Shown here: positions 1,155 through 17,136 of the stretch, piece by piece
Numbering within the stretch: the first letter of the stretch is position 1
Layout of the letters: each line of letters begins with the position of its first letter
Assembly: GCA_017468395.1 (NCBI GenBank)
Contig: JAFUIR010000018.1
Location: 24,042-88,041, forward strand
Length of the DNA stretch: 64,000 nt
Direction of reading: 5' to 3'
DNA from: Lachnospiraceae bacterium
GTDB taxonomy: Bacteria > Bacillota > Clostridia > Lachnospirales > Lachnospiraceae
Made by a program: the position numbers and the translations under genes
The notes under the pieces: model-generated
What the model was told of the DNA's origin: nothing
Databases searched by the model: none
The model's input: only the letters and a program-made list of their open reading frames with translations

Positions 1155-1170
1155 AAGGACGGTGTGCCCA

Positions 1171-2982
1171 ATGATATCCCGCAGGAATTTTTTGAATGTG
1201 ACATTGATGATGATGGCACTGTTTTTCCTGTTTCAGTTTACAGTGGTTGTCAAAGAAAATTGGAAACAGTACGAAACAAATGAATATATGTCGGAAAAAA
1301 ATACACTGCCGGAAGAAACGCCGGAGGCGTCTTTGGGGGACGGGGATTTTGTAGGAGAAAGCCAAAAGACGTACATAGTGTTAGTTAGCGATACGTCGGA
1401 TGAAAGTCTGGTAGATGTAGTTAAGCAGTGGTGTAAGTATTCAAAGAGAACGTTATATGTTTACGATGATTTGGAGGCATATACAAAAGCCGGAAAAAGT
1501 GAGCCGGAACTGTTGCTTCTTGACAAGGTGGGAGAAGAAGACATTCCCCAATTGCAACAATTGGTAAAAGAGGGAATATCACTTTGTTTTTGCCATATGC
1601 CGGATTACGCAGTGGTATCCCAAAATGAAACTTTACGAAGCATTTTGGGAATAAAAGAGTGCATACTGGAGGAAACAACCCTTACCGGTATACATTTGTT
1701 TGAAGGATTTTTACTTGGCGGAGAAGCCATATACGAACCGGAAAAAGAGGAAGAGCAGAAACTTCAGGATATGGATTTGAAGGTGCCCTGGTATGTGCTG
1801 GACAGTGAAACCAAGGCATATATGGTAGGCCTGAAAAGTGATATGGTCAATGCACCGAAAAATGAGCAGCTTCCGCCTGTTATTTGGAGACATAGTGCGG
1901 ACGGAACCATGGTCTTTGCGGTTGTGGGAGACTATATGCAGCAGATAACCGGTATGGGTATTTTGAGTGCTATGGTGGCTGAGAAAAACGTTTATGAACT
2001 GTATCCGGTGGTCAATGCACAAAATATGACTATTGTAAATTTTCCCGGTTTGGCTTCGGAAAACAAAGAGGAAATGGAGCAAATTTATGCCCGTACCCAA
2101 CAGAAATTGATGAGGGATGTTATTTGGCCCGGTTTAGAAATGATCCGGGAAAGGTCAGGAGTGAAGTATACATATTTGTTTGCGACTCAATTTGACTATA
2201 CGGATGGAAATGAACCCCAGACAGAAGACTTAATCTATTATCATAAGTTGATGAAAGAAGGCGGTGCGGAAGCAGGAATTTCCTTGGACCACAAAGAAAG
2301 TATTTCTCTTTCCGAAAAAATGGAGCGGGATGCTCTTTTTTGGGAAAGCACCGAGAACAGTTATATATATGGCAGTTATTACGTTAAACCGGGGGAACTG
2401 AGACAGTTTGCCGGCGGACTTGAATTGCCAAAGGAAGTACGTACGGTTGCTTCTGATTATGAGGAAGGAAGCGAACTTTTTTCCTTTTTAACAGAAGACA
2501 TTACGGTACAGAGGGCTACTGCCAACGGATATAAGCATACTTATCAGGATAACTTTAAATTGAGAAGTCTGGAGACCGCGCTGGGCTATTCCCACATAAT
2601 GGTGGATTTGAATGACATTTATTGGCCCGACACAAAAGACGACCGGTGGGAAATTTTGAGTGATGAATTAGCCAAAAACACAGGAACTTATTGGAAGGCT
2701 TTTAAAGAATTTGAACAGACAGTGCTTTTGGAGAGCGATACAAGAGTGAGAAACTTTTTGGCTCTGGATTATGAACATTACCGGCTGGAAAATTGTATTA
2801 CCCTGCAGGTAGAAAACCTGGAACAGCAGGCATGGTTTATTCTTAGGATGCACGGTGAGGATATTGCGGATGTTCAAGGAGGCACTTATAAACAGATAGA
2901 AAAAGATGTCTATCTGATTGAAGCCACCGGTGAACGTGTGGAAATTGTTTTGGAAGAACAGAAGATAAGGGTTGAGCCCTAA
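1171..2982 (+). CDS. DUF2194 domain protein, membrane anchored
   Basis: About 603 residues with one N-terminal transmembrane helix (MMMALFFLFQFTVVV), then a large soluble part expected outside the membrane. Overall sequence and position match the DUF2194 proteins that accompany pelF and pelG in Firmicutes Pel-like clusters. A role comparable to the polymer-modifying hydrolase/deacetylase PelA is an inference; no metal-binding deacetylase motif is obvious. A GTG at 1162 opens the frame, but AAAGGAC at 1154-1160 is only one base from it and ten bases from the ATG at 1171, so 1171 is preferred. It lies between the truncated membrane protein and pelF with short gaps, consistent with one operon. 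Confidence 0.7.
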   Translation: MISRRNFLNVTLMMMALFFLFQFTVVVKENWKQYETNEYMSEKNTLPEETPEASLGDGDFVGESQKTYIVLVSDTSDESLVDVVKQWCKYSKRTLYVYDDLEAYTKAGKSEPELLLLDKVGEEDIPQLQQLVKEGISLCFCHMPDYAVVSQNETLRSILGIKECILEETTLTGIHLFEGFLLGGEAIYEPEKEEEQKLQDMDLKVPWYVLDSETKAYMVGLKSDMVNAPKNEQLPPVIWRHSADGTMVFAVVGDYMQQITGMGILSAMVAEKNVYELYPVVNAQNMTIVNFPGLASENKEEMEQIYARTQQKLMRDVIWPGLEMIRERSGVKYTYLFATQFDYTDGNEPQTEDLIYYHKLMKEGGAEAGISLDHKESISLSEKMERDALFWESTENSYIYGSYYVKPGELRQFAGGLELPKEVRTVASDYEEGSELFSFLTEDITVQRATANGYKHTYQDNFKLRSLETALGYSHIMVDLNDIYWPDTKDDRWEILSDELAKNTGTYWKAFKEFEQTVLLESDTRVRNFLALDYEHYRLENCITLQVENLEQQAWFILRMHGEDIADVQGGTYKQIEKDVYLIEATGERVEIVLEEQKIRVEP

Positions 2983-3018
2983 GCATAGAAGCGGCATAGG
3001 ATAGGGTAGAGGTGAATT

Positions 3019-4434
3019 ATGAGAATATGTATTGTGGCAGAAGGCTGCTATCCGTATGTGGTAGGCGGTGTGTCCGGCTGGATTGACAGTTTAATCCGCT
3101 CTTTTCCGGAGCATGAATTTGTACTGCTGGCAATTGTAGCCAACCGCTCCCAGAGAGGTAAGTTTGTTTACAAACTGCCGGAGAATCTGGTGGAGATTTA
3201 CGAGCACTACCTGGAAGATGTGGACTGGGGAAAAGAGTCTAAAAAGAAATTGCATTTAAGCCAGAAAGAATACAAAGCCCTCAGAAGCCTTTTGTTAAAC
3301 CAAAAGGTAGACTGGGATGTGCTTTTTGACTTGTTCCAAAACAGAAAATTCTCCATAGATGCCCTGCTTATGGGACCTGACTTTTTGCAGGCGGCCATGG
3401 AATGTTATCAGCAGCAGTATTCCCAGATTGTGTTTTCGGATTTTTTGTGGACACTGCGTTCCATTTATTTACCTTTGTGTCTGACTTTGCAGATGGAATT
3501 GCCTAAGGCGGATGTGTATCATTGTGTGGCTACCGGATATGCAGGTGTGCTGGGCAGTATGGCGCAATATAAACATGGTTGTAAACTACTGATTTCGGAG
3601 CACGGAATTTACACAAGAGAACGTGAAGAAGAATTGGTAAAGGCCACTTGGGTAGTGGGAATCTACAAAAATATTTGGATTGACCAATTTAAAAAAATGT
3701 CACGTCTGGCATACGAAAGGGCGGATATTGTAACAAGTCTTTATGCCCATGCCAGAGAATTACAAATTGAACTGGGATGTCCCGCAGAGAAAACAAGGAT
3801 TACACCTAATGGAATTAAAACTGCCCGCTTGGCGGATTTGCCCGGAAAAACAGAGGAAGATGAAGATAAAATCAATATAGGTGCCATTCTTCGTGTAACA
3901 CCTATTAAGGACGTTAAGAGTATGATTCAGGCATTTGCCTTTGCCAAGGGTAAGCAGCCGAATCTGAAATTGTGGATTATGGGTCCTTGTGATGAAGAGG
4001 AAGAGTATGCCCAGGAGTGCTATGATTTGGTGGAGGCGCTACAGGTGGAAGATGTGGTGTTTACAGGCCGAATTGATATTAAAGATTATTTAGGGCGTAT
4101 GGATGTTACGATATTGACCAGTATCAGTGAAGGTCAACCTTTAACTATATTGGAAGGCTTTGCGGCTCATAAGCCCGTGATTGCCACTGATGTAGGAAAT
4201 TGTAAGGGGCTGATTTTCGGGGAGGATGACGGCATCGGTCCTGCGGGAATACTGACCCACGTTATGAATATTGAAGAAATATCCCAAGCCATGGTGGATA
4301 TGGCAGTGCGTCCCCAGATGCGCATAGAGATGGGTGAAAACGGTTATCGCCGCGTAATGGCTAAATACCGGATTGAACAGATGGTGGAAACCTATAAAAA
4401 TATTTATTTGGAATTGAAGGAAGAAAAGGAGTAA
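3019..4434 (+). CDS. pelF: PelF-type GT4 glycosyltransferase
   Basis: 471 residues. The N-terminus (MRICIVAEGCYPYVVGGVSGW) is typical of PelF, the cytosolic retaining GT-B transferase that uses a UDP-sugar to build the Pel polymer. The C-terminal Rossmann half carries the donor-site region ILRVTPIKDVK and the EX7E motif in SISEGQPLTILE, whose two glutamates are intact. Length is close to that of known PelF proteins. The start is supported by AGAGGTG seven bases before the ATG. The stop codon is followed at once by the pelG-like gene, whose ribosome-binding site (AAGGAG) lies at the very end of this coding region, so the two are probably translationally coupled. Function as polymer synthase is from family knowledge; polymer identity is unknown. 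Confidence 0.9.
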   Translation: MRICIVAEGCYPYVVGGVSGWIDSLIRSFPEHEFVLLAIVANRSQRGKFVYKLPENLVEIYEHYLEDVDWGKESKKKLHLSQKEYKALRSLLLNQKVDWDVLFDLFQNRKFSIDALLMGPDFLQAAMECYQQQYSQIVFSDFLWTLRSIYLPLCLTLQMELPKADVYHCVATGYAGVLGSMAQYKHGCKLLISEHGIYTREREEELVKATWVVGIYKNIWIDQFKKMSRLAYERADIVTSLYAHARELQIELGCPAEKTRITPNGIKTARLADLPGKTEEDEDKINIGAILRVTPIKDVKSMIQAFAFAKGKQPNLKLWIMGPCDEEEEYAQECYDLVEALQVEDVVFTGRIDIKDYLGRMDVTILTSISEGQPLTILEGFAAHKPVIATDVGNCKGLIFGEDDGIGPAGILTHVMNIEEISQAMVDMAVRPQMRIEMGENGYRRVMAKYRIEQMVETYKNIYLELKEEKE

Positions 4435-4436
4435 CT

Positions 4437-7088
4437 ATGGCCGGAATTGGTGTGAAACTGAACCGCATATATGAAAAAAATACCATTACCACCAATTTGG
4501 TAGGCTTCGGCTACAGTCTGGTTATGACGGTAGCCCCTATGTTTCTGGTAATTCTTTCTGTGTTTGCTGTGGGAAAAATCGTTGAACTTAATTCCGTGGG
4601 ATATGCGCAAAGAGAATTGTTGTCCTGCACCACGCTTTACATATTTATTTTTTCCATGCTTGTAACCACACCTTTTAATGCGGTTTTGTCCAGGTATTTG
4701 GCGGATGTTATTTACGAGGAACAGTATGATGATATCCAGCCTTGCTTTCATGTGGGACTTCTTTTGAATGTGGTGCTTGGGGCGGCTGTGGGAGTGCCTT
4801 TTTGTATTTGGCAATACATAGTCAGTGACACGCCGATTCATTTTATTTTTACGGGCTTTTGTGCCTATATGGCCTTGATTTTGGTGTTCTATTCCATGCT
4901 GTATTTGTCAGTTTGTAAAGACTATCAGAAGATATTTGTGTTCTTCTTTGCGGGAACCGTGACCACCATTTTAACGGCAGTGTTATTTAACAAAGTGCTG
5001 GGATGGGAACCTACCTATACAGTATTGCTCTCTTTGACGTTAGGATTTGTTGTAACAGCAAGTCTGGAACTGAGTCTGGTAAGATGCTATTTTAAGAGAA
5101 ACAGCGGTAAATATGCGGCAGTGTTAAAGTATTTTGTGAAATACTGGCAACTTGCGGCGACCAACTTGTTGTTTACTTTGGGAATGTATATTCACAACAT
5201 GGTATTTTGGAATTCCGATATGGGAATTAAGGTAAACGGCTGTTTTTTCAGTGCGGGGCCTTATGATATGGCGACTTGTCTGGCCATGTTTACCAATATT
5301 ACATCCACGGTTATTTTTATGTCCAGAGTAGAAATGCACTTTCACGCAAAGTATAAGGCCTATTCTGAAGCGGTTATCGGTGGCAGACTGATGGATATCG
5401 AAAATGCCAAAAAGCGTATGTTCCGTCAGTTAGGTGCGGAAATTATGAATCTGGTCCGCATACAGTTTATTATTTCGGTCATTTTGTATTTGCTTTGTAT
5501 TATCTTTTTGCCGCAACTTGGCTTTTCGGGATTAACCTTACAGATTTACCCTTGTCTTGCGGCAGGCTATTTTATTTTATTTATCATGTATGCTGCTATG
5601 ATTTTCCTGTTTTATTTTAATGATATGACAGGATCACTGCTTACGACCATTGTATTTTGCGGAACGGTTCTGGTAGGCAGCATAGTTGCCATGAATGCCC
5701 AGCCTGTCTGGTACGGAGCCGGAGTGGTAATCGGAGGTTTCAGTGGATGGTGCGTGGCTTATTACCGGTTAAGGTGGGTAGAGCGCAATCTGGATGTACA
5801 CATTTTCTGCAATGGTCACCTGATGAAAAAGGGCAGAGGAACAAAACCGCCTGCACAGGTATTGTTTAGCAGGGAAAAAAATGAAAAGAAAAAATGGTTG
5901 TTTGTTATAAACACCCTTGGAAGAGCAGGGGCAGAAACTGCGCTTTTGGAATTACTGCGACATTTAGATGAAAAAGAGAATGAAATATCACTTTTGGTTA
6001 TGATGGGCCAAGGTGAGATGCTGGGAGAAATTCCGGAGCATGTGAAATTATTGAATAAGAAGTATTCGGAAAAGTCGGTGCAGACAAAGGCAGGACGCCG
6101 CAAGATGTACGGATATGCCCTGAAGATGCTGTTTAAAAGAGGAAGTATTTTCCGCAGGTTTATGTATCTGTGCAAGAATTTTGCCGAGATGAAAAAGAAG
6201 GGTTGCGTGATGCCCGATAAGTTATTGTGGCGGTTGATTGCAGATGGAGCGCCCCGGTTGAAAGAGGAATTTGATGTGGCGGTGGCCTACTTGGAGGGGG
6301 GCGCAGCCTACTATGTGGCGGATTACGTGAAAGCACAAAAAAAAGTGGCTTTTGTACATGTGGATTATGAACAGGCAGGATATAGCCGTTTATTGGACAA
6401 AAGTTGCTATGAAAATTATGATCGGATATTTACTATTTCCGGTGAGGTGCAGGAAAGTTTCCTGAAAATCTATCCCGAGCATGCTTCTAAAACGAGAATT
6501 CTCCATAATTTGCTGGATCAGGAATTGATTAGGAAAAAGGCAGAGGAAGCAGGCGGATTTACAGATGATTATGAAGGAATACGCCTGTTGACGGTTGGAA
6601 ATCTCATTGAGCAAAAGGGCTACGATGTGGCAATAGAAACAATGTATCTGCTGAAACAGGCAAATGCACCGGTGCGCTGGTACGTTATCGGTGAAGGGAA
6701 ATGCAGAAAAAAACTGGAAAAGAAAATCGAAGAACTGGGCTTGAAAAAAGATTTTCTGCTTCTTGGATATAAAGAGAATCCCTATCCTTGGATAAAACAG
6801 TGCGATTTGTATGTGCATGCTACCAGATATGAAGGAAAAAGTATGGCGGTGCAGGAGGCACAGGTTTTGGGGAAAGCCATTGTGGTGTCAGATTGCAGCG
6901 GCAATCGGGAGCAAATTTGCGGCGGTACGGATGGTGTGCTGTGTGAATTTGATGCGCAGAAGTTGAAAGAATGTATTATGCAACTGGCGGAAGATTCAGC
7001 GCTGCGCCAAAAATTGGGCGAGGCGGCTGCATGCAAAAATCAGGCAGGACAGGAAGAAATAGATAAATTACTTTCCGTTTTGGAGTAG
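4437..7088 (+). CDS. pelG: PelG polysaccharide transporter fused to GT4 glycosyltransferase
   Basis: 883 residues, roughly twice the usual PelG length. Residues 1 to about 460 are a polytopic membrane protein of about twelve helices beginning MAGIGVKLNRIYEKNTITTN, the recognisable PelG (MOP/Wzx-like) start; it would carry the polymer across the membrane. Residues about 480-883 form a complete GT-B glycosyltransferase: KKWLFVINTLGRAGAETALLE at the N-lobe, LLTVGNLIEQKGYDVAIE at the donor site and EX7E in RYEGKSMAVQE. No stop or frame change separates the two parts, so this is a true in-frame fusion. It starts two bases after pelF stops. The fused transferase may act on the polymer or a linkage unit at the export site; this is inference. 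Confidence 0.85.
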   Translation: MAGIGVKLNRIYEKNTITTNLVGFGYSLVMTVAPMFLVILSVFAVGKIVELNSVGYAQRELLSCTTLYIFIFSMLVTTPFNAVLSRYLADVIYEEQYDDIQPCFHVGLLLNVVLGAAVGVPFCIWQYIVSDTPIHFIFTGFCAYMALILVFYSMLYLSVCKDYQKIFVFFFAGTVTTILTAVLFNKVLGWEPTYTVLLSLTLGFVVTASLELSLVRCYFKRNSGKYAAVLKYFVKYWQLAATNLLFTLGMYIHNMVFWNSDMGIKVNGCFFSAGPYDMATCLAMFTNITSTVIFMSRVEMHFHAKYKAYSEAVIGGRLMDIENAKKRMFRQLGAEIMNLVRIQFIISVILYLLCIIFLPQLGFSGLTLQIYPCLAAGYFILFIMYAAMIFLFYFNDMTGSLLTTIVFCGTVLVGSIVAMNAQPVWYGAGVVIGGFSGWCVAYYRLRWVERNLDVHIFCNGHLMKKGRGTKPPAQVLFSREKNEKKKWLFVINTLGRAGAETALLELLRHLDEKENEISLLVMMGQGEMLGEIPEHVKLLNKKYSEKSVQTKAGRRKMYGYALKMLFKRGSIFRRFMYLCKNFAEMKKKGCVMPDKLLWRLIADGAPRLKEEFDVAVAYLEGGAAYYVADYVKAQKKVAFVHVDYEQAGYSRLLDKSCYENYDRIFTISGEVQESFLKIYPEHASKTRILHNLLDQELIRKKAEEAGGFTDDYEGIRLLTVGNLIEQKGYDVAIETMYLLKQANAPVRWYVIGEGKCRKKLEKKIEELGLKKDFLLLGYKENPYPWIKQCDLYVHATRYEGKSMAVQEAQVLGKAIVVSDCSGNREQICGGTDGVLCEFDAQKLKECIMQLAEDSALRQKLGEAAACKNQAGQEEIDKLLSVLE

Positions 7089-7119
7089 AAAAAGGCAGAT
7101 TTATAACTACCGGAAAGGC

Positions 7120-8463
7120 GTGAAACAGGTGAACATAAAGAAGTTGTTTCAAAAAAACAGTCACGGTTTTTCCAAAGCGTGGGAATTTGAGACGGAACTA
7201 TCAAAAGAAGAGAATACAAGTTTGGGTAATCCCGGGAGAGGCTGGTATCAACTTTATTCTTTTGCGGTGGAGCAAAAGATTGATCCGAAGGAACTGAAAT
7301 GGTCTTTGGATGCACAGGATGAGATAGCCCTTGTTGTGGTTGATATCGGCGCTTATCGTTCCCAACCTTTGGACGAAGAAGCATTGCATAATCTTAGGGA
7401 AATTTTGAAATTTTTTGCCCATTACCAAAAAGATATGATTCTTCGGATTGTATACGACAGAGAAGGAAAAGGGATGGAGCGAGAGCCGGGGCTGTATGCA
7501 AGGGTTACAGAGCATATGGAACAGGTAGGACCTATTCTGGCTGAGTATGCCCGGTCTATCTTGACTTTGCAAGGACTTTTTGTGGGAAATTGGGGCGAAA
7601 TGCATGGTTCTAAGTATTTGTCCAGGGAGCAGATGCAAGGTCTGGTTCAGACAATGGAAGAAGTTACAAAGGGCTTGTGCCCGTTGGCAGTGAGGCGTCC
7701 CGTGTTTTGGAGATGGGTTTCGGGACAGACTGCGTTTGGCGGAGAATATGCGGGAAATATTGGATTGTTTGACGATGCCATGTTTGCATCGGCTACTCAT
7801 CTGGGAACTTTTGGAGAAAAAGCAGCCAAAGAAGCCGGCTGGCAACTGCCTTGGAGAACGCAGGAAGAACTGCTTTTCCAAAAATGGTTGGGGGATTTTG
7901 TCCCTTGCGGCGGCGAAGCGGTAATGCCGGAAGATGGGGCGGAATCGGAAGATGCCCAAAATCCCGGTGCAGTTATAGACCGGCTTAAAACAATGCACAT
8001 AACCTATTTGAATCGAATTTATGATGGACGGTTATTGGAAAAGTGGAGACAGATTCCTTGCGGCGTGCCGGGACTGTGGCAGGAAAAAAGTTTGTATGAT
8101 TACATTGGTGGACATTTGGGCTATCGCTTTGTAATCACCGATGTCAAGGTAAGAAAAAAGCAGTCATTACAGATAGAAGTGATAATAGAAAATAAGGGTT
8201 TTGCAGGAATTTATGCCGAAACAGAGGTTTGGCTGGTGGTTGAGGGACAGTCGCCACAGGAAAGCCGGAGAGAGAAAATAGACTGTGACCCGAGAACTTG
8301 GAAAAGTGGAAGCCAAAATGTGATTGTGGGCTGTTTGCCGGAAGAAAGCGGCAGAGTTTATCTGGAACTGCATAGAAAATGGGACAAAAAAACCATCCGG
8401 CCCGGAAATAAATGTGAGCCGGATGGAAAGGTTTACTTGGGAAGGCTTACTTGGAAACAGTAA
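7120..8463 (+). CDS. DUF4874/DUF4832 domain protein, cytosolic form
   Basis: 447 residues with no signal peptide or membrane helix visible. The N-terminal phrase NPGRGWYQLYSF and the later segments LQGLFVGNWGEMHGS, VRRPVFWRW and NRIYDGRLLEKWR are hallmarks of DUF4874/DUF4832 proteins, predicted to have a glycoside-hydrolase-like barrel followed by a beta domain. No enzymatic activity is established for the family to my knowledge. The GTG at 7120 lies two bases after GGAAAGG; a second in-frame GTG at 7129 has better spacing and may be the true start. It follows pelG by 31 bases, so it probably ends the operon. Its last 17 bases overlap the end of the opposing paralogue. A role in polymer hydrolysis or modification is inferred from context only. 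Confidence 0.7.
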   Translation: MKQVNIKKLFQKNSHGFSKAWEFETELSKEENTSLGNPGRGWYQLYSFAVEQKIDPKELKWSLDAQDEIALVVVDIGAYRSQPLDEEALHNLREILKFFAHYQKDMILRIVYDREGKGMEREPGLYARVTEHMEQVGPILAEYARSILTLQGLFVGNWGEMHGSKYLSREQMQGLVQTMEEVTKGLCPLAVRRPVFWRWVSGQTAFGGEYAGNIGLFDDAMFASATHLGTFGEKAAKEAGWQLPWRTQEELLFQKWLGDFVPCGGEAVMPEDGAESEDAQNPGAVIDRLKTMHITYLNRIYDGRLLEKWRQIPCGVPGLWQEKSLYDYIGGHLGYRFVITDVKVRKKQSLQIEVIIENKGFAGIYAETEVWLVVEGQSPQESRREKIDCDPRTWKSGSQNVIVGCLPEESGRVYLELHRKWDKKTIRPGNKCEPDGKVYLGRLTWKQ

Positions 8464-10117
8464 ATTCTCCTAAGAAATAGTAGCCGTCAGAAATAGTTTC
8501 CTCTTGGACATTGGCAAACTTAATGGGCTTATTGCTTATGGGGTCTATGATTTCCAAATAAACAGAGTAATGTCCCGTACCTAAGGTGCTGATTGGTATC
8601 GGGAAAGAAAGGGTGGCGGTTTCACCGCTGTTCCAAAATCTTGTATCATTACAGGACTTGTCGGAAACGCCGGTGTCCGGTGTATAGGAATAGAGTACAT
8701 TACTTTCTTCATTCCGTATATGCAGTGAAATGGGGAAAGAAACATAACTGTTGCTAAACCCTACATTTTCCACTGTGATTTCAAAAGTTGCATCGCGGTT
8801 TAGTAATCCTTGCGGGGACAAGGCGCCGCAGCGAAGTACATAGCGGTAGCCCAGGTGGCGTTCAATGTAGTCGTAGCCGGTAATATCCCCAAAAACGTCG
8901 TCATAATAGTAAGTGGACTTCCATTTATTTAAAACCGCGTCATCGTGAATGCTGCTCAAATAAGATACATGCATTTGGGACAGGGAGGCAACTGCTGATT
9001 CAAAATCGTTGTAAGTATTGTTGATTACAACTTCACCGCCGTTTGGCACATAGCGGCATAATTCGTTTTGAAAAGCAAGTTCTTCTTCCCGTGTGCCTTT
9101 TAAGGAGAGGTTGTCACCGGAGAGGTTGTCTGTGCCGTAGGTTCCAAGGTCGTTTTCGGAGCCGAGCATGCCATCGTTATAAAGTCCCAGGCGTGACAAC
9201 ATACTGCCGCTATAAGCCTCATTTTCGGACAGAGGCGCAATAGTGTTGGCTATCATACGCCACTGCGCAGGAGTGCGGGTAGACAGATAAATAGAAGAAT
9301 CGGTTGCTTGTGCAAGGTGCTCAAAAAGCGGAATCATATTTTCTTCTATAGAAAAACGTGAGCCGTGCATTTCCGCATGGTTGCCCAAAAAGATGCCCTG
9401 CATAATATAAATGGAATCGGCATAACGGTTGACGGTGGGAGCTAGTTGGTCTATGTGCTCATAGACGGTATCGATATTTTGCGGCTCGGTTTTGGTGGCT
9501 TTGCCATCCCAATCGTAGAGAAAACGAAGCAAAATCTGATGTTCGCAGCTGCTCCAGACGGAAAGAATTTCATCCAGTTGTTCCAGGGCAGCAGAACTGA
9601 TGGAACGATTACTGTAGTTTTTTAAATTGATTTCAATAAGCACAAGATTGTGGGTGTCCTTGGCGGCTGCCTGACGGATGTCAGTTATTTGCTTTTCCAA
9701 GGCATGTTCATCCAAATTTTGTAAAGTATAGCCATACAAACGATAGAATCCCTGATAAGGATTATCGAGATATTCACCGCTCTCTTTAAATTCTGCCGGA
9801 GAATAATCCACATGGTAACGGGAATCTTCATAGAGTTTCTGTAAAGTGAAACCGTATAACCGGTAAAATTCCTGATAAAAATTGCTGTGGGAGTTGCCGG
9901 TTTGAGCAACCGTTTCCGAAGAATCTTCCGCGGACTCTGTTTCGGGCGGGATTTCGGACGAAGACTCCAAGTCTGCCGTAATGTATCCAGAAAAAATTTC
10001 TAACGTGCGGGGAAGAACATCCGGATTGTAATAAAGTAACAGTACTAAAAGTGTTGTGGGAAGCAGTATAAGAATTGCTGTTACAAATGTCATTAAAATG
10101 CGAAAAAGGCGTTTCAT
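8447..10117 (-). CDS. DUF4874/DUF4832 domain protein, membrane anchored paralogue
   Basis: 556 residues starting at an ATG preceded by GGAGGA at 10121-10126; an upstream in-frame ATG at 10147 lacks a good site. The N-terminus has one transmembrane helix (LMTFVTAILILLPTTLLVLLLYY), so the bulk is expected outside the cell. After an acidic, Ser/Glu-rich stretch comes a duplicated motif: FYQEFYRLYGFTLQKL and then NPYQGFYRLYGYTLQNL. The rest parallels the convergent neighbour (IYIMQGIFLGNHAEMHGS; YLSSIHDDAVLNKWK). The stop codons overlap tail to tail by 17 bases and no terminator separates them. The two proteins probably act on the same substrate inside and outside the membrane; this is inference. 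Confidence 0.7.
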   Translation of the reverse strand: MKRLFRILMTFVTAILILLPTTLLVLLLYYNPDVLPRTLEIFSGYITADLESSSEIPPETESAEDSSETVAQTGNSHSNFYQEFYRLYGFTLQKLYEDSRYHVDYSPAEFKESGEYLDNPYQGFYRLYGYTLQNLDEHALEKQITDIRQAAAKDTHNLVLIEINLKNYSNRSISSAALEQLDEILSVWSSCEHQILLRFLYDWDGKATKTEPQNIDTVYEHIDQLAPTVNRYADSIYIMQGIFLGNHAEMHGSRFSIEENMIPLFEHLAQATDSSIYLSTRTPAQWRMIANTIAPLSENEAYSGSMLSRLGLYNDGMLGSENDLGTYGTDNLSGDNLSLKGTREEELAFQNELCRYVPNGGEVVINNTYNDFESAVASLSQMHVSYLSSIHDDAVLNKWKSTYYYDDVFGDITGYDYIERHLGYRYVLRCGALSPQGLLNRDATFEITVENVGFSNSYVSFPISLHIRNEESNVLYSYTPDTGVSDKSCNDTRFWNSGETATLSFPIPISTLGTGHYSVYLEIIDPISNKPIKFANVQEETISDGYYFLGEFTVSK

Positions 10118-10145
10118 ATTTCCTCCAACTAAAAAACTTAATGAC

Positions 10146-10178
10146 ATTATAGCATTAGTTGCAGAAAAATGCTATGCT
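10146..10178. promoter_or_regulatory. Symmetric divergent promoter element, copy 1
   Basis: Between the divergent DUF4832 and Stealth genes. On the minus strand TAGCAT (10169-10174) and TATAAT (10146-10151) are separated by 17 bases, with TGC before the -10. On the plus strand TAGCAT (10150-10155) and TATGCT (10173-10178) are also 17 bases apart. The two promoters overlap completely because the element is nearly palindromic. It matches the element at 16024-16056 in 27 of 33 positions. Transcript starts would fall about 20 bases before the minus-strand ribosome-binding site and about 45 bases before the plus-strand start codon. Confidence 0.65.
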
Positions 10179-10231
10179 GTCACTGATAAGATAGGATAGT
10201 TTTGGGAAAAAGGACGCCGGGGGACAAAACC

Positions 10232-12436
10232 ATGAGAAAAGAAAACCAAGAAATAGATTTTGTGATTACCTGGGTAGATGGAAGTGACCGGGAGTGGCTG
10301 CAGGAAAAACGTATCCACGAAAGTCAGGCTACGGCACAAGGGAGAGAAATTGACAGCCGCAAGGAAAGATACCGGAATTGGGGCTTTTTGGTGTATTGGC
10401 TGAGAGGCGTGGAAAAGTATGCTCCGTGGGTGCGGAAAATACATCTGGTAACCAGCGATATTGTTCCGGCATGGTTAAATACAGAGCATCCCAAACTTCA
10501 CATTGTGCGTCATGGAGATATTATTCCCAAGGAATTTTTGCCTACCTACAACAGTAATGTAATTGAATTGTATTTGCACCGCATAGAAGGGCTGGCGGAG
10601 CAGTTTGTATATTTTAATGATGATATGTTTTTGACGGGAGAGGTTGCCCCTTCTGACTTTTTCAGAAAAGGTCTGCCCTGTGATATGCTGGCTTTCCAGC
10701 CCGTTGTGGCAAATCCCGCAAATCCGGTCATGTCACATCTTTATTTAAATAATATGATGGTTTTAAGTAAATACTTTGGCAAGCGGGCGAATGTAAAGAA
10801 GCAGCCGGGGGCTTATTACCATTTTGGATACCCTGTTTTGTATTTTGCATATAATATATTAGAAATGATGTTTCCGCAATTTACCGGCTTATACACGGTC
10901 CATGACCCTTTTCCGCTGTTAAAGAGTATTTACAGCGAAGTTTGGGAAAAGGAGAAGGAGCTGCTTTGTCAGGTGTCTTCCCATAAATTCAGGGAAAAAG
11001 AGGATGTGACACCCTATCTTATGAGAGAGTGGCAGAAACTGTCCGGCAAGTTTTGTCCCTGCAATATTACCCGTAGATTCCGGTATTTTGAAATCGGACG
11101 GGAGAATGGCAAACTGCTGAAAGCCATGGGACAAAAGAAGGTGCGGATTATCTGCATGAACGATGTAGACGGGGAACTGGATTTTGCGAAGGTAAAAAGC
11201 GAAATTAGTAATGCTTTTGAAAAAAAATTGTCCAAGAAATCCTCCTTTGAAAAGACTGATGGTACTTTTTTATTCCAAAGTCTGAGAGAGGCGTTAAAGC
11301 CGGAGCAAGAACGGGAAAGTCTGAATGAAAACGAGGTGGGGGACTGGAATTCTTTTCTTAAGGTTGCGGAGAAACATAAAGTATTATCTTTGCTTTATGA
11401 TGTTCTGCAACCAATGAATTTGTCTGCAGAAAGCAGAAAAGTTTTAGATAAGGTGTCCAAAAGAATTGTAAAGCAAAATTACCGGCTGCTTTTTTTGAGC
11501 AGGGATGTGCAGGAAATTTTGCAAAAAGAGAATATAAAATCGGTTTTATTAAAAGGCGTGGCCACGGCATCTTTTTATCCGGTACCGGAACTGCGTAAGT
11601 CCGGAGATGTGGATTTGTTGCTTCCTTATGAGGGAGATGTGGAAAAAGGCTGTGAAATTTTGCAGGAAAAAGGCTATAAAGTGAAAGAAATCCAGCATGC
11701 CCATCATCATGTGGTGCTGGTATCGCCGGATGGAATTGATGTGGAATTGCACGGAATGTTGGCAGAACCTTTTGATAATGAGAAAATGAACCGATATTTA
11801 AAAGGCAAACAGGAAAGTTGTGCCTCGGAATGTGAAAAGGCGCAGGTTATGGGACTTTCTCTTTGGGTATTAAAGCCCGGTTACCATGCCTATGAATTAT
11901 TATTGCACATGCTACAACATTTTCTGCGTTCCGGTTTCGGGCTGAAGTTACTTTGTGACTGGGTCGTATTTTGGAACAGCGAAGTGCCGGAAACGGAGCG
12001 GGAAAAATATCTGGAGTTAATCCGGGAAAGCGGACTGGAAGGATTTTCAGCCATGGTGACAGCCGCCTGTGTGGAATATCTAGGGTTAAAACGTGAAAAT
12101 GCCTGCCACAAAAATCTGCCGGATGCTCACTTGGCGGAGCAGTTTATCCTTGAAGTTTTGCAAGCGGAGGAGTTCGGAAAATCTGCCAAGAACCGTATGG
12201 TAGCTATGCGGGGAAACGGTTTGTGGGATTATGTAAGAGAGTTTCATCACCAGATGCACCTAAACTTTCCCGGGATGGGAAAAGTCTGGTTATTCTGGCC
12301 GGTGCTATGGGTCATTACCCTTGCAAGGTTTTTAAATAATAACCGGAAACTGAACAGAGGCTCCGGTATGGCGATTATCCGTAAGGCAGGAGAACGAAGT
12401 GAATTAATCCGGCATATGGAATTGTTTGAGAAATGA
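10232..12436 (+). CDS. Stealth-type sugar-phosphotransferase fused to nucleotidyltransferase (NTP_transf_5-like)
   Basis: 734 residues. Residues 1 to about 340 carry the Stealth conserved regions in order: IDFVITWVDGSDREW (CR1), HRIEGLAEQFVYFNDDMFL (CR2), a CR3-like part with HFGYPVLYFAYN and HDPFPLLKSIY, and MNDVDGELDFAKV (CR4). Stealth enzymes move hexose-1-phosphate onto sugars or polymers, as in capsule synthesis and GlcNAc-phosphotransferase. The C-terminal half resembles the uncharacterised nucleotidyltransferase family PF14907: VLLKGVATASFYPVPELRKS, then GDVDLLLP and IDVELHG, which supply the acidic residues of a polymerase-beta-like active site. ATG 10232 follows GGGGGAC by seven bases; an upstream TTG at 10202 is possible. 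Its promoter is the shared symmetric element, tying it to the PqqD-kinase and peptidase genes. Substrate unknown. Confidence 0.8.
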   Translation: MRKENQEIDFVITWVDGSDREWLQEKRIHESQATAQGREIDSRKERYRNWGFLVYWLRGVEKYAPWVRKIHLVTSDIVPAWLNTEHPKLHIVRHGDIIPKEFLPTYNSNVIELYLHRIEGLAEQFVYFNDDMFLTGEVAPSDFFRKGLPCDMLAFQPVVANPANPVMSHLYLNNMMVLSKYFGKRANVKKQPGAYYHFGYPVLYFAYNILEMMFPQFTGLYTVHDPFPLLKSIYSEVWEKEKELLCQVSSHKFREKEDVTPYLMREWQKLSGKFCPCNITRRFRYFEIGRENGKLLKAMGQKKVRIICMNDVDGELDFAKVKSEISNAFEKKLSKKSSFEKTDGTFLFQSLREALKPEQERESLNENEVGDWNSFLKVAEKHKVLSLLYDVLQPMNLSAESRKVLDKVSKRIVKQNYRLLFLSRDVQEILQKENIKSVLLKGVATASFYPVPELRKSGDVDLLLPYEGDVEKGCEILQEKGYKVKEIQHAHHHVVLVSPDGIDVELHGMLAEPFDNEKMNRYLKGKQESCASECEKAQVMGLSLWVLKPGYHAYELLLHMLQHFLRSGFGLKLLCDWVVFWNSEVPETEREKYLELIRESGLEGFSAMVTAACVEYLGLKRENACHKNLPDAHLAEQFILEVLQAEEFGKSAKNRMVAMRGNGLWDYVREFHHQMHLNFPGMGKVWLFWPVLWVITLARFLNNNRKLNRGSGMAIIRKAGERSELIRHMELFEK

Positions 12437-12515
12437 TGGGCTAAACGGGCTGTATGACTAAAAATTATAGTCAAAGATACTAAAAATCAAAGTAAAATCT
12501 TGGTAAAATTATCGC

Positions 12516-12544
12516 TTGCATAATATAAACTGAAAATGTATAAT
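12516..12544 (+). promoter_or_regulatory. Strong sigma-A-type promoter of the peptide gene
   Basis: TTGCAT at 12516-12521, a 17-base spacer and a perfect TATAAT at 12539-12544, in very AT-rich DNA. Transcription would begin near 12551, leaving a leader of about 45 bases before the peptide start at 12596. This gives the small peptide gene its own transcript, separate from the Stealth gene 160 bases upstream. Confidence 0.8.
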
Positions 12545-12595
12545 AAGTACACAATTTGTTTTTTGAGAAATTTTTTCATGTTGGGAGGTAAAATA

Positions 12596-12946
12596 ATGAA
12601 GGAGTACGTAAGACCTATTGTTGTTGTAAATGAAGACGTGGCTGAAGGTGTTTTTGCTGCAAGTGGTGCAGTTGTTGCAGGCGGCGCACCCGGATGTGAT
12701 AGTAAATACATGAACTTTAACTGGCAGGCTGGTACTTTTGCTTGGAATTCAACAGCAAAAGATTACTATGGATGCGTAGGCTGTCCTGCATATCGTCCCA
12801 CCGGTTGTGGTTTGAAGATAGATGAAGCATATCTTGCCGGAGCAACCAGTTATAATGTAGATAACGGAAACCGTATGCCCGATTGGGAAAGAGCAGGTGC
12901 TACTGCTGACAGAATGATTGACGATGCAAACGGTTTGGCATATTAA
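12596..12946 (+). CDS. Small Cys-containing peptide, candidate exported precursor
   Basis: 116 residues, unrecognised as a characterised protein. The start follows GGGAGG by seven bases. The N-terminal 24-30 residues look like a leader: MKEYVRPIVVVNEDVAEGVF followed by AASG and then a Gly-Gly at 29-30. The remainder is rich in Gly, Ala, Asn, Asp, Tyr and Trp with four cysteines (34, 60, 63, 71; the last three in a CVGC...GC cluster), as in secreted or modified peptides. There is no classical hydrophobic signal sequence. A strong promoter and an efficient terminator bracket the gene, implying high monocistronic expression. Convergent to it lie an ABC exporter and a PqqD-kinase, making it the likely substrate of that machinery; this is inference from arrangement. 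Confidence 0.75.
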   Translation: MKEYVRPIVVVNEDVAEGVFAASGAVVAGGAPGCDSKYMNFNWQAGTFAWNSTAKDYYGCVGCPAYRPTGCGLKIDEAYLAGATSYNVDNGNRMPDWERAGATADRMIDDANGLAY

Positions 12947-12960
12947 TCAGTAAATTTTAA

Positions 12961-12990
12961 GGGTTGTCGCAATGTGCGGCAACCCTTTTT
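12961..12990 (+). terminator. Rho-independent terminator after the peptide gene
   Basis: An 11-base stem (GGGTTGTCGCA with TGCGGCAACCC, one G-T pair) closed by an ATG loop and followed by TTTTT. It lies between the convergent peptide and ABC transporter genes; on the minus strand the A-rich flank (AAAATTTAC region) gives a weaker T run, so it may work both ways. Confidence 0.9.
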
Positions 12991-13028
12991 GGTATGTAAA
13001 AATATTAACTTCCAAGGAGTTTTCATTT

Positions 13029-14798
13029 CTAAAATGCTTTTAGCATTTCTGCAATTTCTGTTTCATCCAACGTTCTGCAACTTAAATTCTCCAGTTTATA
13101 TACCTTATTACAAGCAGAAAGCACGGTAGGTCTGTGGGTGGTCAAAATGCAAATTCTGGGAGAATCATCCTGTATAATATTGCGTAAAACCTGTCGTTCC
13201 GTAGCTACGTCCAAAGCTGATGTGGCTTCGTCTAAAAGTAAGATGGGGGCCTTTCTAAGAAGTGCCCTGGCAATACTCAGGCGCTGTGCCTGACCTTCCG
13301 AAAAGCCGCCGCCCCGTTCCATAACCGTGCTGTGAATACCTTCCGGCAACTTTGAGACAAAATCATAGGCACAGGCGAGTTTCAAAACCTGCCATATTTC
13401 TTCTTCGGTGGCATCCGGTTTGACGCTTCGCATATTTTCAGCGATAGTACCCGAAAACATGGTGTTTCCCTGAGGAACGTAAGAAAAGAGTTTGCGGGTG
13501 GCCGGAGAGAGCGGAATATGTTCCGCAGGTGAAGCAGCCCCGTATAAATAGGTTTCGCCGGATTGAGGTTGCAGCAATGACAGTAAGAGCCGCAACATGG
13601 TGGTCTTTCCTTCGCCGGAGGGACCCACAAGCGCAATCATTTCCCTTGGAGCAACGCTTATAGAAATTTTACGGAAAACCTGTGTGCCGGAATGATAGGT
13701 GTAGTCTGCTTCGGAAACACATAAGCCGATGCCCTGCTGTTTATTTTCTTCATAAAATTTATCGACACTGTCGCTTGCTGAAAAATCCTCCTGGGGCATA
13801 TTTAAAATGTCAATCAGACGGCCTGCGGATGTGGTCAGGCTGATGGCGGTAGGGACTAAAGAAATCAGTGAGTTCAGTGCCCCAGTGAGCATTCCGGAAA
13901 GGGAGAGAAAAAGGGTCATGGTACCATAACTGATGGCTCCGCTCCACACTCTGTAAATTCCCCAACCGTAAGAACTGTAGGTTACTGCCAAGCCAATCAG
14001 GGACATGAGGATGGAGGTGAGCATGGACATACGCTGGAAATCCAACTTCATACTAATGTATTCTCCCTGTAAACTGCGCAGGCGATTGGTGTATGTTTTT
14101 ATAAGGTCAAAAGCCTTGATGGTTTGGATGTTGGAAAAAGATTCCTGATTAAACCCGGACATTTTTGCGTTCATGGCAGCACTTCTTTGGTTGTTGTTCC
14201 GCATACGCTTCATCAGTGTACGGGACATAAGCATTGTGACGGGAACGCCGAGCATGGCAATCAGTGCAAACGTGACATCGTGGTATACCACAATGGCAAA
14301 AGCGCCAATAAAGCGGAAAAGGTTAATAATCAGGTTGGGAATCCAGTTCAGGAGACCGCTTGAAACGGCAGAAGCGTCCCCGCTCCAACGGACAAGCAAA
14401 TCCCCGGTGTGATAGGAAGCAATGGACTCCCAATCGGTAGTAAGCATTTGTGAAAAAATGTCTGCCTTAATTTCCGTATCTACTTTTAAACTAATCCAAT
14501 TGGAAGCATAGGTAGATAACTGCGTTACAACGACATTTGCCACTGCAAAAGTAATCATCATAACAAAAGTCCGGATGAGACGACCGGTCTGATAGCCGGT
14601 AATAATATCCACCAAATCACGGGAAAGGAGACTGGCTATCAAAGAAACACCTGTACCAAGCAGTCCCAGCAACGTATAAAGGATAATGTGTTTGTGGTAT
14701 TTGCGGGCATACTGGTAAATCCATTTTGTTTCCTGCCACATTTCACGGAGCATGCCTTCTTTTATTTTTGTAATAATTTTATTTATTGTTTTTTTCAT
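13029..14798 (-). CDS. ABC exporter, fused membrane and ATPase domains
   Basis: 589 residues. An N-terminal six-helix ABC membrane domain (about residues 25-310) is followed by an ATP-binding domain: Walker A GPSGEGKTT, signature FSEGQ in place of LSGGQ, Walker B ILLLDEATSALD and the switch His in TTHR. There is no N-terminal C39 peptidase domain, so leader cleavage, if any, needs a separate protease. The start is the ATG at 14798, preceded by AAAGGA; upstream in-frame starts lie inside the end of the PqqD-kinase gene. It begins 20 bases after that gene stops, so the two form one operon. Likely exports the nearby 116-residue peptide; lipid or drug export cannot be excluded by sequence alone. 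Confidence 0.85.
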   Translation of the reverse strand: MKKTINKIITKIKEGMLREMWQETKWIYQYARKYHKHIILYTLLGLLGTGVSLIASLLSRDLVDIITGYQTGRLIRTFVMMITFAVANVVVTQLSTYASNWISLKVDTEIKADIFSQMLTTDWESIASYHTGDLLVRWSGDASAVSSGLLNWIPNLIINLFRFIGAFAIVVYHDVTFALIAMLGVPVTMLMSRTLMKRMRNNNQRSAAMNAKMSGFNQESFSNIQTIKAFDLIKTYTNRLRSLQGEYISMKLDFQRMSMLTSILMSLIGLAVTYSSYGWGIYRVWSGAISYGTMTLFLSLSGMLTGALNSLISLVPTAISLTTSAGRLIDILNMPQEDFSASDSVDKFYEENKQQGIGLCVSEADYTYHSGTQVFRKISISVAPREMIALVGPSGEGKTTMLRLLLSLLQPQSGETYLYGAASPAEHIPLSPATRKLFSYVPQGNTMFSGTIAENMRSVKPDATEEEIWQVLKLACAYDFVSKLPEGIHSTVMERGGGFSEGQAQRLSIARALLRKAPILLLDEATSALDVATERQVLRNIIQDDSPRICILTTHRPTVLSACNKVYKLENLSCRTLDETEIAEMLKAF

Positions 14799-14818
14799 TT
14801 TAGCGTTCCTTTGAGGTT

Positions 14819-15991
14819 TCAATAGGGCGTATCCAAGCACTTGTCAATTTCCCCTTGGATGGTATCCAGGGCTTCACGTTCCGGGGTACAAAGCAGACGG
14901 AATACAGAGGCTTTTTGGGCAAGTTCTTTTGCAAAATTTAAGTTTTGTTCCAACATTTCTTCCGTCCATGCAGGCGAGATGAAACGCTGGCTTACCAGTA
15001 AAATTTTGCGGTCTGTTTCCAGATTCTCACATAGGTTGGACGGGTGCTGTTTTAGCAGTACAATGCCTCCGAGCGGATAAGTTTCTACCGTGGAAATTTG
15101 GGAAGTGCCACACCATGGAATGCCATGGATTACGGGGCCGTTGGAAGTAAGTTCCATCAAATTCAAGTCTCCGTTTAGGATAGGAACCCCTAAATATTTG
15201 TTCCAAAGCCCGGCATGGGTAGATTTTCCTGTGCCGGAAACTCCGGAAAAAAGCCATGCTTTATCACGGTATAAAACAGAGGAAGAATGAATCATGAACA
15301 TGCCTTTTCTCTGGGCCAGTAATAAATAGGTAAAACGGATTCCGTGAAAAAGCGCCTGTTGTAATTCGGTATCAAAAGGGGGAATGCAATAAAAATCACA
15401 GTGCGAACCATCTTTTGCCAAATGCGCCTCTGTCAGGCGTGGGGTAGAAGGGAACTGTATCAGATAATAATCCTCGGTTTCACTTAAAATCAGTTCTTCA
15501 TTGTGAAGCAAAACCCGTCTGACGGTGTCATGGGAGGGCTTGGATAATAAAATGCGGATTTTTTGGTCCGGTTTGGTTAAGGTGTCCGGTTCCTTTATCA
15601 CAAAGGGTTCAAATTCCGGCGAAAACAGATCCTTGGCACCCAAATAATGTAAAATCAACCCGCCGATTCGTAAGTAGCAGGACAGGGAATGTTCCATAGG
15701 ATTTTGGTCGGGAAAATCCGGCAGTATAATGCCAAGATGCTGTAATTGGTCGAGAAAAGAATTCATGTCCCGTTCCAGTTCCTCACGATTTAAGGCATCT
15801 ACCTGGAAGTTTTCGGCAATCAATGCCAGTAATTCTATACGGTCCGGCTCCTGCGCCAAGGCATTCCAAATAAAAACACCCGTAGCATTTAATTTTACCC
15901 CTTTTCTGTGCGTGGCAATATTTTGCCCAAAAGGCAGTAAATAGGGGACATTTGCAATTTCCTTTAATGTGTATTGCGGACTACGTTTCAT
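14819..15991 (-). CDS. PqqD-like domain fused to HPr-kinase-like domain
   Basis: 390 residues. Residues about 1-90 resemble PqqD/RRE peptide-binding domains (MKRSPQYTLKEIANVPYLLP, GVKLNATGVFIWNAL), which recognise leader peptides in RiPP pathways. Residues about 100-390 resemble the HPr kinase/phosphorylase fold: MIHSSSVLYRDKAWLFSG, then P-loop GVSGTGKSTHAGLW and the acidic NGDLNLMEL segment. In some Firmicutes lasso peptide clusters a related kinase phosphorylates the precursor, which makes peptide phosphorylation a reasonable but unproven role here. The ATG at 15991 follows GGAGGT by nine bases and is preferred to an in-frame TTG at 16012. It is transcribed from the symmetric divergent promoter and followed by the ABC exporter. 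Confidence 0.8.
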   Translation of the reverse strand: MKRSPQYTLKEIANVPYLLPFGQNIATHRKGVKLNATGVFIWNALAQEPDRIELLALIAENFQVDALNREELERDMNSFLDQLQHLGIILPDFPDQNPMEHSLSCYLRIGGLILHYLGAKDLFSPEFEPFVIKEPDTLTKPDQKIRILLSKPSHDTVRRVLLHNEELILSETEDYYLIQFPSTPRLTEAHLAKDGSHCDFYCIPPFDTELQQALFHGIRFTYLLLAQRKGMFMIHSSSVLYRDKAWLFSGVSGTGKSTHAGLWNKYLGVPILNGDLNLMELTSNGPVIHGIPWCGTSQISTVETYPLGGIVLLKQHPSNLCENLETDRKILLVSQRFISPAWTEEMLEQNLNFAKELAQKASVFRLLCTPEREALDTIQGEIDKCLDTPY

Positions 15992-16023
15992 AAAACCTTT
16001 ACCTCCGGACAAAAACTACTATC

Positions 16024-16056
16024 ATTGTAGCATTTTTTGCAGAAAAATGCTACAAT
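16024..16056. promoter_or_regulatory. Symmetric divergent promoter element, copy 2
   Basis: Between the PqqD-kinase (minus) and peptidase (plus) genes. Plus strand: TAGCAT at 16028-16033, 17 bases, TACAAT at 16051-16056. Minus strand: the same boxes with the same spacing (-35 at 16047-16052, -10 at 16024-16029). The centre is an exact 12-base inverted repeat (TGTAGCATTTTT and complement) around TGCAG. It shares 27 of 33 bases with the element at 10146-10178, including the unbroken block TTGCAGAAAAATGCTA. Confidence 0.7.
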
Positions 16057-16089
16057 AGCAAATAGAAATAATGGTCAATGGGAGGGAAT

Positions 16090-16554
16090 ATGGTTTCAAA
16101 AACGGGGGACTTGTCTATCATCGGCACAGATTTGGAGAAAATACTTGCAGAGGGGAATGCTGTCAGAGTGAAACCCCAAGGATTCAGCATGTATCCCATA
16201 GTGGTGCCGGGGCGGGATGAAGTCATTATAGAACCAATAGAAAATAAGAAATTAAAGCGCGGAGATGTGGCACTCTATCGCAGGGAAGGAAGCATTTTGG
16301 TGCTTCATCGCATCTGGAAACGCAGGGGTGATGACTTTTATTTTGTGGGAGATAACCAGACGGAAGTGGAGGGACCTTTGCCCCTGACACAAATAAAAGG
16401 GGTTATGGTATTTCTGATCCGTAAAGGTAAGGAGATTCCGGTGACCCATCCCGGTTATGTGCTGTTAACTCGCGGGTGGCTTTTTTTAAGGCCTTTCCGC
16501 CAGCCTATTAAAAAGGTTGCAAAGTTTTTTAAGAATAGGAAATCCGGTAACTGA
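16090..16554 (+). CDS. S24/S26-type serine peptidase-like protein
   Basis: 154 residues. The order of motifs is that of signal-peptidase/LexA-fold enzymes: VKPQGFSMYPIV with the predicted nucleophilic Ser, LKRGDVALYRREG, VLHRIWKR and FYFVGDNQ. The presence of HRI in place of a catalytic Lys recalls the ER/SipW-type Ser-His signal peptidases. No N-terminal transmembrane anchor is visible; a weakly hydrophobic segment (GYVLLTRGWLFL) near the C-terminus might bind the membrane. The ATG at 16090 follows GGGAGGG; the ATG at 16078 overlaps that site and is rejected. It is expressed divergently from the PqqD-kinase gene and is the only candidate in the locus for leader removal from the 116-residue peptide. 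Confidence 0.75.
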   Translation: MVSKTGDLSIIGTDLEKILAEGNAVRVKPQGFSMYPIVVPGRDEVIIEPIENKKLKRGDVALYRREGSILVLHRIWKRRGDDFYFVGDNQTEVEGPLPLTQIKGVMVFLIRKGKEIPVTHPGYVLLTRGWLFLRPFRQPIKKVAKFFKNRKSGN

Positions 16555-16594
16555 CATATAATGAAAGGAATAGTTGTGTAGGCGGAAATCCGGC

Positions 16595-17122: not shown

Positions 17123-17136
17123 AGGAGGAAACAGGA

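Follow-up and report, generated by a model that had tools for sequence, protein, structure and literature searches.

A putative export pathway for leader-tagged small proteins, related to that of linear polyphosphorylated peptides, at a Pel-type exopolysaccharide locus

Linear polyphosphorylated peptides (LPPs), a type of ribosomally synthesized and post-translationally modified peptide (RiPP), were published in May 2026 (Popov et al., 2026; PMC13381572). The available portions of that paper describe a kinase, LppK, which adds several phosphates to Ser3 of the core, and a protease, LppS (Ser29, His68, Asp93), which cleaves the leader aided by a RiPP recognition element (RRE); LppN had no effect in B. 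subtilis. The leader Tyr lies at −16, F−3 and T−1 of LppA stand at the cleavage site, and N33 and D70 of LppB bind the Pro kink and the Tyr of the leader, respectively. The authors describe the roles of LPPs and paeninodins as unknown and a part in biofilms as a tempting, untested idea. This report concerns a set of five genes in a 64,000-nucleotide stretch of Lachnospiraceae bacterium contig JAFUIR010000018.1 (the window), in which an earlier note had seen a peptide maturation and export system. The set is best read, with a probability that we put at roughly 0.6, as an export pathway of LPP-like type, with small protein domains as cargo, that is joined to a Pel-type exopolysaccharide locus. 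A single shared tag of 24 residues appears to mark various small proteins, among them several that look like sugar-binding modules, for a dedicated set of enzymes that probably read, trim and export them.

Two other groups of described systems touch on this locus. Among the phosphorylated lasso peptides, Bsf precursors have YxxPxL at −17 to −12 and a kinase that acts on core Ser3, according to the available part of PMC10368454, and PsmN of pseudomycoidin, an annotated nucleotidyltransferase, adds one or two hexoses to the phosphoserine after the kinase has acted, according to the relevant part of a review (PMC9266682). For the Pel polysaccharide, the available text of PMC7112168 reports DUF4832 genes contiguous with pel genes, and the Pel cluster of Roseburia is noted as larger, with capsule or teichoic acid genes, in the accessible parts of PMC7112168 and PMC12345266.

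A shared leader, its gene set and the Pel-type locus

When 61 genomes of the genus were searched with the whole window peptide, 23 matches were obtained in 17 genomes, and 15 of these matches ended by residue 33. The relatives, of about 80–170 amino acids, all have the sequence MKxYxKPVVLxNEELAEGVYAASG in common and diverge in the remainder; the leader-like N-terminus suspected in the earlier note is thus the part that relatives share. A leader profile matched 58 open reading frames (ORFs) in the retrieved regions. Two fell outside the end pattern (L144, which ends in SG, and L161 of genome G106, rejected as spurious on reading), and the leaders of the window and of region L160 were added by hand, giving 58 counted leaders. 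All 58 end in Ser-Gly, under a pattern in which the last residue had to be Gly and the one preceding it Ser or Gly. The Tyr of YxxP is kept in 53 and the Pro in 54 of the 58, and Ser23 is the sole invariant hydroxyl residue within the leader.

Leader and kinase occur together. Of 250 family genomes, 16 have the leader, 14 a full-length kinase (E ≤ 1e-100) and 13 the two together (p = 4e-18). HprK relatives that score lower or are shorter occur in another 25, which makes 39 in all at E ≤ 1e-30. The leader genomes without a full-length kinase are G106, with its spurious match, G205, which is 68% complete, and G272, whose kinase is diverged (248 bits). In G155, the one kinase genome in which the leader profile found no match, reading of the sequence shows a divergent leader. 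Within the genus, the leader was present in 25 genomes, the kinase in 25 (a short relative in G039 having been dropped from 26) and both in 24; of the two exceptions, G001 (leader, no kinase) ends at a contig edge and G012 (kinase, no leader) is a cut contig.

The neighborhoods were compared in 38 of 62 retrieved regions, namely those whose kinase scores 240 bits or more, lower-scoring split relatives being excluded; as the regions were selected by leader or kinase matches, the counts are not frequencies in nature. Near the kinase stood an ABC gene in 36 regions, the leader in 33, the protease in 31, NTP_transf_5 in 21, DUF4832 in 18, Stealth in 9 and PelG, inside the region, in 7. In the 28 regions with at least 5 kb on each side, the corresponding numbers were 27, 26, 23, 18, 15, 9 and 6. 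The gene set is a conserved unit, beyond chance, and the co-occurrence of peptide and partners on which the earlier note had staked its proposal is positive in both family and genus. Across the class, 291 sampled genomes gave matches solely in the two that belong to the same genus as the window; the system is therefore confined to one family in this sample, probably the Lachnospiraceae. Scanning genome contigs with a single kinase query returned one locus, in a metagenome-assembled genome of Acetatifactor, the one named relative, from which the family assignment is drawn.

Two observations on individual regions may be added. The protease gene is masked by an opposite-strand ORF at L141:8022-8495, L146:8095-8556 and L154:8504-8977, where it is present by profile search. 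A response regulator and a histidine kinase (L028:9053-10564) stand between a discrete PqqD gene and the peptide gene, a placement compatible with regulation.

Upstream of the five-gene set sits a Pel-type operon (Table 1). The window holds the three elements by which Gram-positive Pel loci are recognized: PelG, DUF4832 and a glycosyltransferase that we take to be PelF-like from its domain pair, DUF3492 + GT1. The DUF4874-DUF4832 protein at 7120..8463 is possibly a Pel-associated glycosidase. PelG was found in 15 of 16 leader genomes, the exception being G106, against 42 of the 250 family genomes overall, and in 22 of 25 leader genomes against 25 of the 61 in the genus. Where a genome has both, leader and PelG share a contig in 12 of 15 cases in the family and 15 of 22 in the genus. 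Two groups of genomes weigh against such a tie: G008, G032, G060 and G155 have the system and no PelG match, and PelG occurs without the leader in 27 family and 3 genus genomes.

Within the window, Pfam and NCBIfam scans of the ORFs recovered all five genes where they had been placed, and the exporter, described earlier as lacking its own peptidase, consists of ABC_membrane and ABC_tran with no C39 domain listed. Its top NCBIfam rows, MsbA_rel and MsbA, are both under their cut-offs. Double-glycine/C39 export was rejected, since the C39 domain is not listed and the leader is of another type. The window peptide had no Pfam or NCBIfam match at E up to 1. No macrolactam cyclase, B2 protease or radical SAM protein was listed among the 13 window proteins scanned (48 to 18201), and the defence-system models of PADLOC were matched solely by the ABC protein, through ATPase models. 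The sequence does not show the strong expression claimed for the peptide, offering only the GGGAGG site and the 13-pair stem; in 12300-16700 there are 6 terminator-like sites, and shuffled sequences have 4.5 on average. The gene set and the outline of the pathway in the earlier note stood, and the Pel-type locus beneath the set had been overlooked.

Table 1. Features of the window and leader proteins on phage contigs.
Feature	Position	Strand	Basis or detail
Protein without Pfam match, head of Pel-like operon	48..1154	+	Pfam scan
DUF2194 protein of Pel-like operon	1162..2982	+	E 3e-20
PelF-like glycosyltransferase	3019..4434	+	DUF3492 + GT1
PelG-type exopolysaccharide exporter fused to GT1/GT4 glycosyltransferase	4437..7088	+	PF16933, E 2.8e-145
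DUF4874-DUF4832 protein, first	7120..8463	+	Pfam
DUF4874-DUF4832 protein, second	8447..10147	-	Pfam
Stealth + NTP_transf_5 in one ORF	10202..12436	+	PF11380, E 2.5e-42; PF14907, E 1.8e-41
Stealth part (sugar-phosphate transferase-like)	~10253-11263	+	Pfam
NTP_transf_5 part	~11342-12085	+	Pfam
Ribosome-binding-like site GGGAGG before peptide gene	12583..12588		GGGAGG
Peptide gene	12596..12946	+	116 amino acids, 4 Cys
Peptide leader MKEYVRPIVVVNEDVAEGVFAASG	12596..12667	+	24 residues; YxxP = residues 4-7; Ser23-Gly24 terminal
Mature part of peptide, A-type 4-Cys protein	12668..12946	+	Cys34, 60, 63, 71
Terminator-like stem, 13 pairs, 3' of peptide gene	12959..12987	+	consensus scan
MsbA-like ABC exporter	13029..14840	-	ABC_membrane + ABC_tran
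PqqD (RRE)-HprK-like kinase fusion	14819..16012	-	PqqD ~15725-15904, E 5.1e-12; kinase ~14828-15367
SipW/archaeal-type signal-peptidase-like protease	16078..16554	+	TIGR02228, E 3e-7, below curated cut-off
Bacterial large signal recognition particle (SRP) RNA	43290-43498	-	Rfam RF01854
Phage leader protein, 4-Cys A-type	L189:6246-6653		slot after exonuclease gene
Phage leader protein, D-like	L192:9995-10393		same slot
Phage leader protein, D-like	L193:9995-10393		same slot

Recognition, modification and cleavage of the leader

Homology and the covariation of contact residues suggest that the PqqD domain binds the leader through its YxxP motif. Against structures, the PqqD-kinase profile matched TbiB1 (5v1u, E 5.6e-5), LppB (9x8z, E 0.014, weak) and a lasso RRE (9x90, E 0.05). 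The residues equivalent to N33 and D70 of LppB are N and D in the window, and are kept in 36 and 34 of 39 aligned rows, respectively. All three regions with a Tyr-less leader (L076, L078, L160) have lost the D70 equivalent, against 2 of the 32 regions with YxxP (L077, L157). This covariation has p = 0.0015, but its cases are not independent, as L076, L077, L078 and L160 carry cargo of a single family. The window and the aligned full-length relatives have PqqD and kinase in one fused protein, and some relatives have an additional discrete PqqD; such discrete genes stand beside NTP_transf_5 in L028, L031, L034, L035 and L149.

The fused HprK-like kinase would then phosphorylate the invariant Ser23. 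If Tyr4 is counted as −17, in Bsf numbering, residue 21 becomes the first of the core and Ser23 the third, a candidate phosphosite by analogy. The sequence libraries recognized the kinase half weakly (HprK_rel_B, E 0.009, under the cut-off), although its P-loop is intact and its His conserved, and the window motif H-G-G-G-K-S is kept. An alternative account holds that this half is an inactive scaffold and that recognition, cleavage and export proceed with no chemical modification. It draws on the Asp-Asp of the active site, which reads Gly-Asp in 38 of 39 rows, these being all the rows that cover the site, and on the first Gly of the motif, which is Ala in 11 of 39; the remaining P-loop residues Gly, Lys and Ser (replaced by Thr in 2) are nevertheless retained, as are the His and the second Asp, and the invariance of Ser23 likewise speaks against the scaffold account, which appears unlikely, though it keeps some weight.

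In the favored LPP-like pathway, NTP_transf_5 may subsequently add a sugar to the Ser23 phosphate together with Stealth, GT2 or flippase partners. Elsewhere than in the window, its partners are a GT2 in L031 (E 2e-37) and a flippase-like stretch in L022 (18.2 bits, cut-off 23). Homology also supports trimming by the signal-peptidase-like protein, in which Ser37, His77 and Asp92 are invariant in 16 aligned sequences and which by sequence has a triad of the same type as that of LppS; a search of the PDB with the protease profile returned only Utp6, which is unrelated. The cut could fall after residue 20, after Ala22, with an aromatic residue at −3 and a small one at −1 as in LppA, or after Gly24. 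The constant linkage of the ABC protein to the set suggests that it exports the product.

Cargo proteins in bacteria and on phage contigs

Beyond the leader, the mature parts belong to unrelated families. The four Cys are invariant in ten aligned sequences of the 4-Cys (A-type) family, which in hhalign comparisons without the leader scored a probability of at most 0.1% against the other five families; types C and D were linked at 96.8%. Some mature parts appear to be beta-sandwiches nearest to CBM2. The substrate of L025 matches Pfam CBM_2 at 24.6 bits (cut-off 24) and that of L024 at 19.8, below it, and an AlphaFold2 model of an L021 substrate, with a predicted local distance difference test (pLDDT) score of 74, gave CBM2 cellulose-/chitin-binding domains as the top Foldseek result (E 1.5e-4). 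The CBM2 likeness of the D type comes from a predicted fold, and the window substrate has no CBM_2 match in Pfam; its single-sequence AlphaFold2 model was uninformative (pLDDT 31). Sequence searches of the PDB with the D, C and 4-Cys profiles and with the window peptide led nowhere, and the absence of a fold from the VIA list was not counted as evidence. The earlier note had the leader of the peptide right and missed that the substrates are diverse small proteins with only the leader in common, as it missed the phage-borne substrates described below. A second short 4-Cys substrate family, unlike the window type by reading, occurs at L038:793-1050, L150:9339-9587 and L155:8390-8635.

Substrates need not adjoin the machinery. 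For 47 of the 58 leader ORFs from the retrieved regions an ABC gene is present within 10 kb, and the other 11 lack one at that distance; after L147 (a short contig without ABC) and the spurious L161 were dropped, nine stand-alone copies in seven genomes remained. Six of these genomes have the kinase elsewhere and the seventh is G205; one copy (L039) comes from the genome to which the window belongs. In the surroundings of eight of the nine copies, ten ORFs were scanned with Pfam; they belonged to metabolic, transport, regulator or unknown families, with no match for two, and none was a phage hallmark. A further type of stand-alone leader protein is encoded at L151:8762-9175 and L152:9473-9955, the former resembling ubiquitin weakly in Pfam (E 1.5e-3, under the cut-off).

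Scans of IMG/VR yielded three phage contigs with true leader proteins. In each of them the gene occupies the same slot, behind an exonuclease gene. L192 is part of a contig of 137 kb, and its leader gene also comes shortly before terminase and portal genes. The protein of L189 shares 67 of the 116 window-peptide residues (58%; 56% by tblastn) and is, by a small margin, the closest relative seen, the best aligned bacterial relative being 54% identical. The D-like proteins of L192 and L193 are 88% identical to each other, and the exonucleases of the slot are 51-54% identical. As 4-Cys and D-like proteins occupy one slot, the cargo varies between related phages while the leader stays the same. 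None of the three phage pieces contains machinery genes, and a viral scan with the kinase likewise gave none; we infer that the hosts of these phages have the pathway. The portal protein of the 137-kb phage had one distant family match (28% identity) in 250 genomes. A fourth viral-contig match, L195, was rejected as a chance match inside an unrelated protein. The plasmid collection held no match of the window peptide, and the sequenced-phage collection none of two phage-borne substrates.

The presence of the system tracks Pel genes and its products include domains like sugar-binding modules, so that the biofilm idea raised for LPPs becomes directly testable. Binding or crosslinking of the Pel-type matrix, or of other glycans at the surface, is the probable role of the exported proteins, several of them CBM2-like. 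Phage-borne substrates would give a phage the means to export its own protein through a host RiPP-type pathway, of which no description was found in the open-access literature by searches not aimed at exactly that. A bolder extension, offered as speculation with small odds, would make the leader a general tag for export and decoration, with NTP_transf_5/Stealth sugar following the phosphate on Ser23, small carbohydrate-binding proteins joined by a phosphodiester to Pel-type or other surface glycan, and phages exploiting the host pathway to change the matrix or surface of the cells they infect, with cargo swapped at one slot.

The products might instead be secreted antimicrobials (bacteriocin-like RiPPs), the variable mature part being the weapon and phages carrying them to the benefit of lysogens. 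Phage SPbeta, which carries sublancin, a secreted antimicrobial, is a precedent, and a constant leader, a strongly variable mature part and a patchy distribution would all suit this explanation; the resemblance of some mature parts to folded CBM2-like binding domains and the strong tie to Pel genes speak against it, and we consider it improbable. More doubtful still is the suggestion that kinase, NTP_transf_5 and Stealth act on a polysaccharide or its carrier, that the ABC protein moves lipid-linked sugar and that the small proteins are accessory regulators, which would accord with the MsbA type of the exporter and with the fusions of NTP_transf_5 to Stealth, GT2 or a flippase-like stretch, but the PqqD-kinase fusion and the discrete PqqD beside NTP_transf_5 indicate a peptide substrate, and leader and kinase stand together even without a PelG match (G008, G032, G060).

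Comparison with described systems

Lasso cores are far shorter than the substrates of about 80–170 amino acids found here, and no lasso cyclase is among the 13 window proteins scanned; lasso kinases read DD where the kinase here reads GD. As described in the available part of PMC10368454, phosphorylated lasso peptides (paeninodin, Bsf) nevertheless resemble the present system in the YxxP leader, PqqD-type B1, HprK-like kinase, nucleotidyltransferase and ABC protein, and Bsf would have the same leader spacing if the core here starts at residue 21. PsmN, as presented in part of PMC9266682, is likewise a nucleotidyltransferase-annotated enzyme that acts after a kinase, the difference being that NTP_transf_5 is fused to Stealth here.

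The SynChlorMet cassette (NCBIfam ScmC, ScmD) also pairs an HprK-like protein with PqqD. The split relatives of L168 and L166 match ScmC weakly, below the cut-off, and those of L169 and L081 carry radical SAM by Pfam, which the scanned window proteins do not. Split systems (L081, L167, L168, L169) consist of PqqD and a short HprK-like protein, mostly with an S26-like protein and some with ABC or NTP_transf_5. Radical SAM is assigned by reading in L167 and L168, and three of the four include very large proteins; short peptides with a YxxP-like start lie at L168:7747-8037, L168:16056-16442 and L167:9840-10139.

Likeness to Gram-positive Pel loci, as far as the accessible parts of PMC7112168 and PMC12345266 describe them, lies in PelF- and PelG-like genes with DUF4832 neighbors; those parts make no mention of peptide export genes.

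The best fit is to LPPs, and the absence of a named RiPP class, as the earlier note had it, was accordingly rejected: the system is a variant of a type named in May 2026. The mechanism proposed there is largely right in outline, as PqqD recognition, HprK-type phosphorylation, possible decoration with sugar-phosphate, trimming and export follow the pathway of published relatives, so far as the available parts of PMC13381572, PMC10368454 and PMC9266682 describe it. According to the same portions of PMC13381572, LPP systems have in common with the present one a SipW-type Ser-His-Asp protease, a PqqD-family RRE, an HprK-like kinase (a candidate one here), an NTP transferase and an MsbA-like exporter, a YxxP leader on precursors (35-200 amino acids in LPPs) with a constant N-terminus and variable C-terminus, a position inside polysaccharide loci and the lack of a macrolactam cyclase. 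They differ in that the RRE is discrete in LPPs and kinase-fused here, and in that the leader ends in EGVYAASG here and in HQxIxFETxxS there; of the LPP leader YxxPxVLxHQxIxFETxxS, the YxxPxV part is present here and HQ and FET are absent. Because these two defining features, discrete RRE and leader sequence, fail, the system is termed LPP-like rather than LPP. Further differences are that substrates here are protein domains, including CBM2-like ones, that the Pel locus accompanies the system in one family, and that substrates may be stand-alone or phage-borne; the words phage, prophage, carbohydrate-binding and clostridia do not occur in the main text of PMC13381572. As far as the literature searches reach, what is new is a clade with a fused RRE that is tied to Pel genes, its protein-domain substrates, CBM2-like ones among them, and the stand-alone and phage-borne substrates.

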